From Lolliginicoccus suaedae (GTDB lineage Bacteria > Actinomycetota > Actinomycetes > Mycobacteriales > Mycobacteriaceae): a DNA stretch of 64,000 nt. The position numbers were made by a program, and so were the translations under genes. Positions 19,178 through 59,853 of this stretch are shown one piece after another; the stretch's first letter is position 1, and every line of letters starts with the position of its first letter. The stretch spans positions 186,001 through 250,000 of the forward strand of contig NZ_VSSO01000003.1 in NCBI RefSeq assembly GCF_008312885.1, given 5' to 3'. The notes beneath the pieces are model-generated. The model saw only the letters and a program-made list of their open reading frames with translations, was not told where the DNA came from and did no database searches.

Positions 19178-19250
19178 GCAAACGCGATAGAAGCTGTCGG
19201 GAAGCCAGGTCGATTTCTATCGCGTTTAGCAGTTTCCGGTGCTTTTGCCG
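19178..19250 (+). repeat. family-1 palindromic element, copy A
   Basis: Left arm GCAAACGCGATAGAAGC (19178-19194), 20-base spacer, right arm TTCTATCGCGTTT (19215-19227), then the conserved tail TTTCCGGTGCTTTTGCCG. The arms are perfectly complementary over 13 bases. It begins 57 nt after the acyl-CoA dehydrogenase stop and has that gene's orientation. Other copies are at 38036, 51402 and 59783. Confidence 0.85.
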
Positions 19251-19301
19251 TCGGGGGGCACAGAGCGTGCCGTCGGTGGGCACGGAGCGCACCGACGGCA
19301 C
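19246..19301 (+). repeat. 22-bp tandem direct repeat plus 12-bp-stem hairpin
   Basis: Two adjacent 22-bp units (19246-19267 and 19268-19289), both beginning TGCCGTCGG and ending GAGCG, differ at two positions. The second unit also forms the left side of a perfect hairpin: GTGCCGTCGGTG (19267-19278) pairs with CACCGACGGCAC (19290-19301). It directly follows palindromic element A and precedes the rhodanese promoter. Confidence 0.7.
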
Positions 19302-19366
19302 CGCCCTCGCGCTGGAGGCCTCCCTCTTCCCAGATGGTCGATCGCGCGCTATCCTGGGTCCAGACA

Positions 19367-19382
19367 ATACCCCAGGGGGTAT
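19367..19382 (+). promoter_or_regulatory. CsoR/CstR-type operator upstream of the rhodanese gene
   Basis: ATACCCC-AG-GGGGTAT is a perfect 7-2-7 inverted repeat, 26 bases before the rhodanese ATG. This G-tract palindrome is the form bound by CsoR-family repressors, especially persulfide-sensing CstR. A -10-like TATCCT (19350-19355) lies just upstream, so a bound repressor would cover the transcription start. No CsoR-family gene is in the window. Confidence 0.6.
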
Positions 19383-19408
19383 ATGAGAGAGCCTGAAGGA
19401 GGCACCTG

Positions 19409-19714
19409 ATGCGCGAAGTCGACGTACACACCCTCAACACCGCATGGACCGACAACGCCACCGTCATCGACGTCCGCGAGGACTTCGAGTACGCTCGCGG
19501 CCGCGTCCCCGGTGCCACGCTCATCCCCCTCGGCGAGCTCGCCGACCGCGTCCACGAGGTCCCCAGAGCGGGTCGGGTGTTCGTCATCTGCGCCTCGGGG
19601 AACCGCAGCCAGATGGGCTCGATGATCCTCGCGCAAGCCGGCCACGACGCAGTGTCCGTCGCCGGCGGGACCGCCGCCTGGGCGCGCTCCGGATACCCCC
19701 TCGAGCGCGGCTGA
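19409..19714 (+). CDS. single-domain rhodanese-like protein
   Basis: A 101-residue cytosolic rhodanese domain: VIDVREDFEYARGRVPGA near the N-terminus, the active-site loop CASGNRS with the sulfur-carrying Cys (about residue 61), and GGTAAWARSGYPL at the C-terminus. The loop has Ala where CRSGNRS is typical. It would carry sulfane sulfur (persulfide) in sulfide/persulfide handling. GAAGGAGG lies upstream of the ATG. The CsoR/CstR-like operator implies induction by reactive sulfur or copper. Confidence 0.88.
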   Translation: MREVDVHTLNTAWTDNATVIDVREDFEYARGRVPGATLIPLGELADRVHEVPRAGRVFVICASGNRSQMGSMILAQAGHDAVSVAGGTAAWARSGYPLERG

Positions 19715-19762
19715 CCTCCCCCCGGTCACCCCCGCCCCCGGAACGCAGCGCCCGGCGCGCAA

Positions 19763-19801
19763 GGAAAGCCCCGGACCATCCCCCCTGGTCCGGGGCTTTC
19801 C
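19763..19801. terminator. bidirectional intrinsic terminator
   Basis: GGAAAGCCCCGGACCA (19763-19778) pairs perfectly with TGGTCCGGGGCTTTCC (19786-19801) around a seven-base loop. It lies between the converging rhodanese and cbs genes and serves both. Confidence 0.85.
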
Positions 19802-57140: not shown

Positions 57141-57151
57141 GGTGCATCAGC

Positions 57152-58066
57152 CTAGTCGTCGCTCGGTGGTGCGTCGCGCCCCGGATCGCGCGGGGGCGTG
57201 GCTCCCGCGGCCGCGACGGCGGCGATGCGGACGAAATCGGCGATGCCGAGCTTCTCTCCCCGCTCCGATGGCTCGACGCCGGCGCTGCGCAGGATGCGCT
57301 CGGCCTCCTGCGCGCTGCCTGCCCAGCCCGCGAGGGCGGAGCGCAGGGTCTTGCGGCGCTGCGCGAACGCGGCATCGATGAGGGTGAACACAGCGCGCCG
57401 CACGGCAGGCTCCATCGACCAGGGCGGGGCCGCGTGGCGGGTGATGCGGACGAGGCCGGAGTCGACGTTGGGCGCGGGCCAGAACACGGCCCTGCCGACG
57501 GATCCGGCGCGGCGCACCTCGCCGTAGTAGGCGGCCTTCGCGCTCGGCACGCCGTAGGTGCGGCCGCCGGGGGGCGCGGCGAGCCGGTCGGCGACCTCCG
57601 CCTGGACCATGACCAGGACGGTCCGCACGCTGGGCAGCTCGGCGAGCAGGTGCAGGATGACCGGCACGGCCACGTTGTACGGCAGGTTCGCCACGATCGC
57701 GGCGGGATCACGGCTGCCCTCGGGAAGGTCGTCGCGCCGCACGCGCAGCGCGTCGGCCTGCACCACCGCGAGCTGATCGGTGTGTTCGGGGGCGCGGGCG
57801 GCCAGCGTCGCGGGGAGCTGCGCGGCGAGCGCGGGGTCGATCTCCACGGCCACCACCGGATGCCCGGCCGCGATGAGCGCGAGGGTCAGCGAGCCGAGGC
57901 CCGGCCCCACCTCGAGGACGGTCTCGCCCGGCGCGACGGCGGCGCTGGTGACGATGCGCCGGACGGTGTTGGCGTCGTGCACGAAGTTCTGGCCCCACTG
58001 CTTGGTGGGCCGGAGCCCGAGCTGCTCGGCGAGAACGCGGATATCGGCGGGACCGAGCAGGTTCAC
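57152..58066 (-). CDS. ksgA: 16S rRNA (adenine1518-N6/adenine1519-N6)-dimethyltransferase
   Basis: A 304-residue SAM-dependent methyltransferase that dimethylates two adenines in the 3' hairpin of 16S rRNA. Seen: [35 protein letters not shown], motif [16 protein letters not shown], and [18 protein letters not shown] with the NLPY motif. The GTG at 58066 is two codons before LLGPA, as in relatives, but no ribosome-binding site precedes it; a strong hairpin (58067-58111) touches it. Order rpfB, ksgA, ispE is the conserved one. Confidence 0.94.
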
Positions 58067-58111
58067 AGCATGCGAGAACCCCGAACCGGTGGGCTCGGGG
58101 TTCTCGTGCTG
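58067..58111 (-). terminator. strong hairpin directly upstream of ksgA start
   Basis: CGAGAACCCCGA (58073-58084) pairs perfectly with TCGGGGTTCTCG (58095-58106) around a ten-base loop, and flanking AGCA/TGCT extends the stem. It ends at the first base of the ksgA start codon. No U tract follows on the minus strand. It may terminate rpfB transcription, or control ksgA translation. Confidence 0.5.
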
Positions 58112-58182
58112 GCGCGTGGTGTTCAGTGCGGCCTCATCGTGCGGTCAGGCGGCTGCGGGCCGCGAGGACGTTCGGGCTGGGA

Positions 58183-59316
58183 TCAGCGCAGTCCAAGCTT
58201 GGAGGAGCAGGCCGGCCATGCGCCCCAGCCCTGGGTCGCGCGGACCTTCTCGGCCGTGGCGATCTGCTGCTCGCGGGTGGCGAGGTTGGCGGTGGGCGCG
58301 TACTGGGTGCCGCCGTGCGCCGCCCAGGTGCCCTGCGAGAACTGCAGGCCGCCATAGTAGCCGTTGCCGGTGTTGATGGACCAGTTGCCGTTGGACTCGC
58401 ACTGCGCGAGGGCGTCCCAGGTGCTGCCGTTGCTGATGGCGGGCGCGGCCGGGCGGGGCTTGGTGCCCTTGCGGACGACCGTGGGCTTGGCCTCGGCGCT
58501 GATGTCGGTGGCGACGCGGGTGCGGCCGGACTCGCCGTCGCTGTTGTGCACGACCATGTAGGTGTTGGTGGCGCGGCCCGGGGTGCCGGCGACCTCGATG
58601 CGGCTCTCGCCCTCGAGCATCGACGGATCCTCGATGATCTCCTCGGTCGGCGCGACCTCCTCCTCGAGGGTCTCGCGGACCAGGCGGAGGCGATCGACAG
58701 CGATCTCCATGCCCTCGGTGACGACGGTGCGCTGGTGCGGAGTGACGGCGTCGAAGCCATCGAGCGGGGCACCGACCTCGGCGAGGACATCCTCGACGGT
58801 CATGCCGGTGGTGACGTGCTCGAAGGTGTTGGCGCCATCGGTGATGGTGACGGGCTTCGGCGTGGTCACGGCGAGCTCGAGGCCGTCGATCGGGAGGCGC
58901 TCGGAGCGCGAGGCGGAGACGCCGAGCTCGCGGTTGGTGAGGTCGAGCTGGGCGAGTGCTTCCTCGACGGTCTGGGCGGTGGTCCAGACCTCGCGGATCT
59001 CGCCGTCGATGTTGAGGGTGAGCAGCTTCGCCTTCTGCAGGGTGATGGTGGCGCCGCTGTCGATGTCGGTGCTCGGTGCGGGAACCACGATGTCGTGCTC
59101 GGTCAGGTCGAAGCCTGCTGCCGAGAGTGCGCCCTCGACGTCGCCACTGAACGTGGAGACGGTCTGGGTCTCGCCGTCGACCTCGATGGTGACGTCCTTC
59201 TGCATCGCCATCGCGGTGCCGGTTCCGGCGGCCATGGTGAGCAGGAGCCCACCGGCGACGATCTGGACCTTCTTGGACTTGGGGCTGAGGGCGGCGAGGG
59301 TGGTGGAGCGCGACAT
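58183..59316 (-). CDS. rpfB: resuscitation-promoting factor RpfB
   Basis: A 377-residue exported peptidoglycan lytic transglycosylase/muramidase. Basic N-terminus and hydrophobic helix (about 20-37, [20 protein letters not shown]) act as signal or anchor. Three DUF348 repeats follow (about 40-85, 95-140, 150-190; first [20 protein letters not shown]), then a G5 domain (about 210-275, [20 protein letters not shown]) and the Rpf domain (about 300-377) with catalytic Glu in [20 protein letters not shown]. No lipobox Cys is seen, unlike M. tuberculosis RpfB. A long 5' region with possible MtrA-type repeats precedes it. Confidence 0.95.
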
Positions 59317-59782
59317 TGTGTTCCTGACCTTTGCGTGTACGAGTGTCCGAGCAAGAGATGAAGGGGTTGGTGCGAGCGCCGTTGCTCTCCCCTGTCGGGC
59401 ATCTCCATCCCGGCTGTTCGATAACAGAACCGTAACGAGCCAGTGCTAGCTGGAGCAAGCGTTTTGCCCGGAATGAGACGCGACCCACAGTGCAAAACAG
59501 ATCAGGTTTACTGGGGTGCATATGGGATTTATGGTGCCCAACCGGCCCGAGATAGTAGCTCTGAACTGGTCTTTTACCAGCTCAATACCTGGCCCTGGGC
59601 AACACCTGCAACCACTCCAGCCCCATGGGCCCCGTGCTTGCTACTGTGATCGGGGCCACCGCTGTGCAAGCAGCAGCTAACGCCAGCAATCACGCTTAGA
59701 TAACAGGCAGTGTTACTAACCGGGCTGCGAGGGGGCCCGTGGGACGCGCAGGCTTGGGCGGCCCTGCGCCGCCGTCACCACC
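59317..59782 (-). promoter_or_regulatory. long rpfB upstream region with candidate MtrA-type repeats
   Basis: About 466 bases of lower-GC DNA without a gene. On the plus strand ATAACA (59421-59426) and GTAACG (59432-59437) form an 11-base-period direct repeat of the RTAAC type recalled for MtrA sites. Farther up, TAACA-GGCAG-TGTTA (59701-59715) is an inverted repeat, and ACTGGTCTTTTACCAGCT (59565-59582) a hairpin. No ydaO (c-di-AMP) riboswitch core was found by eye. Confidence 0.4.
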
Positions 59783-59853
59783 GCAAACGCACCGGAAAAC
59801 ACCAAACGCGATAGAAGCGGCGCCCGATTCCCGGCAGCTTCTATCGCGTTTGC
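59783..59853 (-). repeat. family-1 palindromic element, copy D
   Basis: Minus strand: GCAAACGCGATAGAAGC (59853-59837), 18-base spacer, GCTTCTATCGCGTTT (59818-59804), tail TTTTCCGGTGCGTTTGC (ending 59783). It starts 36 nt after the tatD stop in the same orientation. Confidence 0.87.

Follow-up and report, generated by a model that had tools for sequence, protein, structure and literature searches.

What kind of element is the palindrome that recurs at gene ends in Lolliginicoccus suaedae, a member of an environmental genus? The question arises from a 64,000-nt stretch of its genome (contig NZ_VSSO01000003.1, positions 186,001 to 250,000, forward strand), here called the window, which holds four copies of the palindrome. 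How transcripts end in mycobacterial relatives is, to our knowledge, not settled. The copy number of the element, its geometry, its location at 3' ends, the positions that it shares with other species, its conservation amid scrambled flanks, and its partial replacement of ordinary hairpins are computed results. The reading that we favor, with a probability of roughly 0.6, is a lineage-specific, sequence-conserved, bidirectional gene-end element that would serve as a terminator or 3'-end former, probably together with a factor that reads its sequence.

Geometry and number of the element

The four copies in the window and their parts are as follows.

19178..19250, + strand: element copy 1, between the acyl-CoA dehydrogenase and rhodanese genes (tandem); arm 1 19180-19192, spacer 19193-19214 (22 nt), arm 2 19215-19227, linker 19228-19232, third half-site 19233-19248
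38036..38108, + strand: element copy 2, between the SIMPL and DUF4236 genes (tandem); arm 1 38038-38050, spacer 38051-38072, arm 2 38073-38085, linker 38086-38090, third half-site 38091-38106
51402..51473, - strand: element copy 3, between the DUF4166 and CMD genes (convergent); arm 1 51459-51471, spacer 51437-51458, arm 2 51424-51436, linker 51419-51423, third half-site 51403-51418
59783..59853, - strand: element copy 4, between tatD and a G5/transglycosylase-like gene (tandem); arm 1 59839-59851, spacer 59817-59838, arm 2 59804-59816, linker 59799-59803, third half-site 59783-59798

Each copy has the layout GC-AAACGCGATAGAA, 22 nt, TTCTATCGCGTTT, 5 nt, and a 16-nt stretch near TTTCCGGTGCKTTTGC, with copy 1 deviating by an A instead of a G behind the arm. 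The core GCGATAGAA was found eight times in the window, twice in each palindrome, where 0.15 occurrences would be expected by chance, and arm 1 has 17 invariant columns, far beyond chance. The original prediction, made from the letters of the window, had placed the copies at these positions and strands, 57, 54, 56, and 36 nt behind the stop codons of genes for an acyl-CoA dehydrogenase, SIMPL, DUF4166, and TatD; the distances were reproduced and the four gene names confirmed by Pfam. It had also described an unconserved spacer of 18-20 bases and a partly U-rich tail. The spacer sequence is indeed variable, but the spacer is 22 nt long between 13-bp arms in all four copies, and genome-wide its sequence is not wholly unconserved; the tail contains no U-tract and is instead a third arm, degenerate and repeated in direct orientation. 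At gathering scores, Rfam finds two tRNAs only in the window, and the element copies there match no Rfam family.

The genome-wide profile search that had been proposed earlier was run with a sequence-only model (R1) built from 26 copies. It gave 154 matches with both strands counted, which collapse to at least 92 places of the same element; this number is a lower bound because the places were collapsed from the matches listed, and all counts out of 92 refer to them. At least one further, degenerate copy lies outside the 92 (C1:943140, L168). An exact pattern of the core finds 83 palindromes in the genome, and 73 of the 74 occurrences of the exact 15-nt arm fall inside the 92 places, the last one lying in a degenerate palindrome. 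As scored, the 13-bp arms are 22 nt apart in 86 of the 92 copies. Four copies were scored with a spacer of 41-42 nt, and in these, arm 2 is present in imperfect form after 22 or 23 nt and is followed by the third arm, which misled the score. Over the 26 letters of both arms, 69 of the 92 copies are free of mismatches and 18 have one. Some bases are preferred in the spacer, for example R-C-Y-G-C where it begins, and the 86 spacers of 22 nt all differ from each other, so the copies appear to be old rather than freshly spread. Along the chromosome the copies are unevenly placed, and even spacing was rejected (coefficient of variation (CV) of the distances, 0.92).

The third arm, a 16-nt stretch, begins 5 nt behind arm 2 in 88 of the 92 copies. 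When arm 2 was slid along the downstream sequence of these 88 copies, it matched on average 10.5 of 16 positions at a single offset of 19 nt from arm 2 and about 3.5 beyond offset 22. In several copies the third arm is complete or nearly so, one such case being common to L. suaedae and L. lacisalsi (L080/L240); exact TTCTATCGC lies within 30 nt in 4/88. Because the tail matches arm 2 at one offset, the element consists of three half-sites at constant distances, two of them inverted and one direct, and is not a U-tailed hairpin.

Conservation, gene context, and ordinary hairpins

An exact-pattern scan of named genomes returned at least 78 stretches; among the matches listed, 76 belong to L. lacisalsi and L. 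levis, one to a Roseiflexaceae record, and one to a Desulfosporosinus record. With the profile model, the element was found in 4 of 301 genomes of the bacterial family, all of one genus, in a scan that used stricter filters on genomes drawn from a larger group. Genome G001 has 104 matches at E<=1e-10, both strands counted. The fourth genome of the genus (G003; 59% G+C over 400 kb) holds a single diverged copy, in which both arms are changed in step at two positions and the spacer is still 22 nt.

Most copies in the two named congeners occupy shared positions. At the L. lacisalsi and L. levis loci, 70 of 85 copies sit at the spot of an L. suaedae copy, and for the other 15 none lies closer than 150 nt to the projected spot. 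Three of the window copies belong here, as L. lacisalsi carries the element at the sites of copies 1 and 2 (L236 and L195) and L. levis at that of copy 4 (L192). In own-site comparisons, a fixed rule found the element held in 61 of 67, and five of the six misses (L136/L195, L131/L221, L155/L184, L165/L208, L114/L226) are failures of the rule, since they do show the element. Comparisons at loci that hold another exact element also held the element at their own site in 15 of 18 cases. From 71 orthologous pairings we removed 12 in which the L. suaedae copy lacks a regular core and one with a short flank, which left 58, and then three with spacer differences, which left 55. In these 55 aligned pairs, identity is 0.40 in the flanks, 0.65 in the spacer, and 0.87 in the third half-site. 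Each arm's three outer bases, which lie outside the retrieval patterns, reach 0.91-0.98. The inner arm identity of 1.00 is uninformative, because the core columns were part of the retrieval pattern for the other species and of the filter on the L. suaedae side.

One L. suaedae copy (L107, C2:179792) is 90-95% identical to copies at a neighboring site in L. lacisalsi and L. levis (L211, L222); that neighboring site is empty in L. suaedae, and L107 is less like its own-site orthologue. Local exchange or movement is a possible explanation of this likeness.

The gene context of the element was read from predicted genes. The predicted context of the 92 copies is convergent in 65, tandem in 26, and divergent in one, with none inside a gene, so that the four window copies (three tandem, one convergent) are atypical of the genome. 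At least one flanking predicted gene ends toward the element in 91 of the 92 copies, and the location at 3' ends that had been seen in the window thus extends to the whole genome. The 61 copies of two congeners are similarly distributed (37 convergent, 14 tandem in the gene direction, 9 tandem in the opposite direction, 1 divergent). The co-orientation with the upstream gene that the window copies had suggested is not established, because 17 of the 26 tandem copies follow the gene direction and 9 oppose it (p=0.17); pooling with two other species gives 31 versus 18, the species not being independent. In 464 kb of the L. suaedae genome, made up of the window and two 200-kb stretches chosen by hand and therefore not a random sample, the element is held by 12 of the 34 convergent gaps of 60-1000 bp, by 7 of the 115 tandem ones, and by none of the 75 divergent ones.

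The arms are predicted to pair in RNA as a hairpin of 13-17 bp, with median energies of about -30 kcal/mol on both strands and ranges from about -10 to -40 kcal/mol. As in intrinsic terminators, a stable hairpin stands behind a stop codon, as seen by folding the four window copies and by the arm pairing over the 92. We then compared the element with ordinary strong hairpins, defined as a perfect stem of at least 9 bp with a loop of 3-14. Such hairpins mark convergent gaps, as they occur in 13 of 22 element-free convergent gaps (60-1000 bp) versus 6 of 75 divergent gaps. In convergent gaps of 60-1000 bp that hold the element, an ordinary hairpin is present in only 1 of 12, versus 13 of 22 without the element (p=0.009). 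The window together with the L. suaedae copy-centered loci shows 8/59 versus 7/17 in convergent gaps (p=0.033), and the two congeners show 9/48 versus 13/28 (p=0.017). Because element-bearing convergent gaps are poor in ordinary hairpins, the element tends to occupy the place of an ordinary terminator hairpin there.

Related and other palindromes

A pattern known from mycobacterial gene ends revealed a second family in 12 of the 301 genomes, all of genus g29, of which it covers 12 of 28 genomes; this genus is probably Mycobacterium. The arms of this family (L291-L342) are near GCGAGCAGACGCAAA, up to 53 exact copies occur in one genome, and reversed-pattern controls gave none among the matches listed. 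Its frame is exactly 48 bp in 45 of 52 loci (4 duplicates), equal to arm-spacer-arm of the Lolliginicoccus element, and the predicted context of the 52 loci is convergent in 28, tandem in 22, divergent in one, and inside a predicted gene in one. Both consensuses share the outer GCARACGC..GCGTYTGC. The two families are thus alike in the 48-bp frame, the conserved outer arms, and the convergent or tandem placement, and they differ in the arm letters inward of the outer 8 bp and in that inner positions 1-4 of the g29 family covary as base pairs (z 7-15), whereas the 22-nt spacer in Lolliginicoccus has no consistent compensatory pairs. No third half-site was seen in 12 flanks of the g29 family read by eye. 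Homology of the two families is possible.

The g29 family is probably the TRIT motif, a sequence-conserved structured motif reportedly described at Mycobacterium tuberculosis gene ends by Gardner and colleagues in 2011, with RNIE. Like TRIT, the Lolliginicoccus element is one conserved sequence and structure motif enriched at gene termini, here in a mycobacterial relative of the same order. We place it with the sequence-conserved mycobacterial gene-end motifs. A 'TRIT model' of the 2011 paper is mentioned in PMC3526491. The Myt-1 stem-loop family of M. tuberculosis, given in PMC2267715 as 72 bp long with 75 (70) members and a predicted structure, is close to the element in size and number, a comparison made by description alone. 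U-less I-shaped terminators have been proposed for mycobacteria, according to PMC3207917. Intrinsic and U-less terminators resemble the element in that a hairpin follows the stop codon and is usable from both sides in convergent gaps; they differ from it in that the same arm sequence recurs in about 90 places, the spacer is long and constant in length, and a U-tract is lacking. The literature excerpts retrieved for the g29 arm letters or for the genus name Lolliginicoccus contain nothing on such repeats.

Several other palindromes were met. A second palindrome in the window, GTTGTGYGAG-38-CTCRCACAAC with a variable inner hairpin (29632-29689 and 37082-37143), has no exact copies elsewhere in the genome or in three congeners. 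An ordinary symmetric hairpin, GGAAAGCCCCGGACCA-7-TGGTCCGGGGCTTTCC, lies between convergent genes at 19763-19801 and is likely a plain bidirectional terminator, and repeated and inverted CCAGCTGCCACCG units fill part of a convergent gap at 49597-49690. The congener G003 (L251-L270, C1:500001-900000, 400 kb) has two further palindrome families, both small and dispersed, whose frames are nearly rigid. One is TGTGCAGANAAATGCA-22-inverted (frame 53-54; a looser exact pattern finds 6 places in the whole genome), and one is of GTGTGCACAAACT type (frame 52); their gene context is mixed, with two divergent cases. In 200 kb each of two other genera (G011 and G006), no palindrome arm reached three places under a fixed rule.

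Weighing the explanations

In the favored mechanism, the two arms would fold into a 13-17 bp hairpin in RNA from either strand, and this hairpin would most likely end transcription or fix the mRNA 3' end between neighboring, mostly convergent, genes. A trans-acting factor, either an RNA- or a DNA-binding protein, probably also reads the arms, because the need to pair would not by itself keep the arm letters, the length of the 22-nt spacer, and the third half-site constant. Termination itself and the factor are what we infer. Several observations weigh against this mechanism. The element lacks the U-tract that follows the stem of an intrinsic terminator and has a short linker and the degenerate third arm instead, and a simple terminator scan of window positions 18501-38400 misses both element copies there. 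The scarcity of ordinary hairpins depends on the cut-off, with 1/12 versus 13/39 in convergent gaps of 20-1000 bp (p=0.14) and 1/11 versus 5/10 in those of 100-400 bp (p=0.063), and it is absent in tandem gaps (1/7 versus 19/108), also in the copy-centered loci. No consistent pairing covariation runs across the 22-nt spacer, either in the L. suaedae copies or in the other species: the strongest mutual information is between neighboring positions, the pairing diagonal of the L. suaedae copies has signals at 2-21 (z 3.2) and 11-12 (z 7.8), both without pair excess, and that of the other species at 1-22 (z 4.5) and 4-19 (z 3.5) with some pair excess and at 11-12 (z 5.5) without. Non-orthologous pairs reach identities of 0.51 in the spacer and 0.84 in the third half-site, which means that conservation is mostly toward the family consensus and that the orthology signal lies in the spacer; the 12 less regular L. 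suaedae copies were also dropped from the arm count. The context counts rest on our own gene predictor, which was trained on the window and applied to other genera as well. Lastly, a DNA-protein site would explain the rigid geometry and the third half-site no less well.

Such a pure DNA-protein site is the main rival and is possible but doubtful in our estimate. A DNA-binding protein would sit on the two inverted and one direct half-sites at fixed helical spacing and act as a roadblock, an insulator, or a chromosome-organizing site, the RNA hairpin being incidental. It would account for the constant 22-nt spacer (86/92), for a third site that begins 5 nt after arm 2 (88/92), resembles it at one register, and is full or near-full in several copies, and for spacer preferences that are roughly dyad-symmetric with weak and inconsistent covariation across the dyad; the non-significant orientation preference points the same way. 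The strong confinement to gene 3' ends and the partial replacement of ordinary hairpins favor an RNA 3'-end role, however, and the parallel g29 family has compensatory base pairs. Uneven spacing (CV 0.92) also speaks against a DNA site, and no candidate protein was found, Y1_Tnp being the one protein searched for. An uptake sequence for recognition of kin DNA that doubles as a terminator, as in Neisseria and Pasteurellaceae, is very improbable. Uptake sequences are known to occur as inverted pairs at gene ends, and they are very numerous, with single and in-gene copies as well; here the exact 15-nt arm occurs only 74 times in the genome, 73 of them within the 92 places, and none of the 92 lies inside a predicted gene. 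Uptake sequences number hundreds to thousands, as stated in PMC2346458.

The original prediction had set an unusual terminator or 3'-end processing hairpin beside a mobile palindrome with an insertion preference for 3' ends. Retention at orthologous positions and the tendency of element-bearing convergent gaps to lack ordinary hairpins, though not at all cut-offs, argue for the terminator-like role, and the insertion preference is weakened by conserved positions, by empty sites that show no visible target duplication, and by the absence of Y1_Tnp. A mobile palindrome like repetitive extragenic palindromic (REP) sequences, REPINs, or miniature inverted-repeat transposable elements (MITEs), inert today after having settled at 3' ends, is unlikely. 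Such a relic would leave some 92 copies of a single inverted doublet scattered between genes, and REP/BIME sequences and REPINs share this form and the vicinity of 3' ends (PMC3733652, PMC3116915). The polarity that had been held to be unlike REPs does not separate the two, because REPs in several genomes also lie mainly between convergent and co-directional genes, near 3' ends, a typical bias according to PMC3733652. Site differences between species (15/85 copies) and the greater closeness of L107 to neighboring-site copies of other species than to its own-site orthologue would also suit movement. The element differs from REPs and REPINs, however, in its rigid 22-nt spacer, its third half-site, and the sharing of most tested positions. 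PF01797 (Y1_Tnp) has no match in the genome at E<=0.01, while the same search was positive in 6 of 14 control genomes, so the absence of a REP-associated tyrosine transposase (RAYT)-like gene, claimed for the window, extends to the whole genome. No transposase was recognized by eye among the genes between seven close copy pairs, which were not searched against a library. The GTAG or CGTC end tag by which REPs are defined (PMC3733652) was not seen by eye in the alignments. Since the tag and the transposase were both looked for and not found, we do not class the element as a REP. Its columns are kept amid scrambled flanks, unlike those of decaying inert copies, and no target duplication was seen at sites empty in L. 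suaedae (two aligned, one inspected), one of which looks like a deletion.

Within the favored gene-end reading, a protein-dependent two-way stop is a tentative proposal. A Lolliginicoccus factor would read the three half-sites at a fixed helical phase at about ninety gene ends and halt RNA polymerase arriving from either side. The recognized letters would drift between lineages, as the congener with one copy changed in step in both arms suggests, and a frame of 48-52 bp would be shared with the Mycobacterium-like parallel family. With about 90 near-identical gene-end palindromes, many of them kept in place between species, Lolliginicoccus offers a compact test bed for the hairpin, protein-site, and mobile-relic models. 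The 48-bp frame common to another genus of the same family suggests that sequence-conserved gene-end palindromes may form a wider class, with letters that depend on the lineage.

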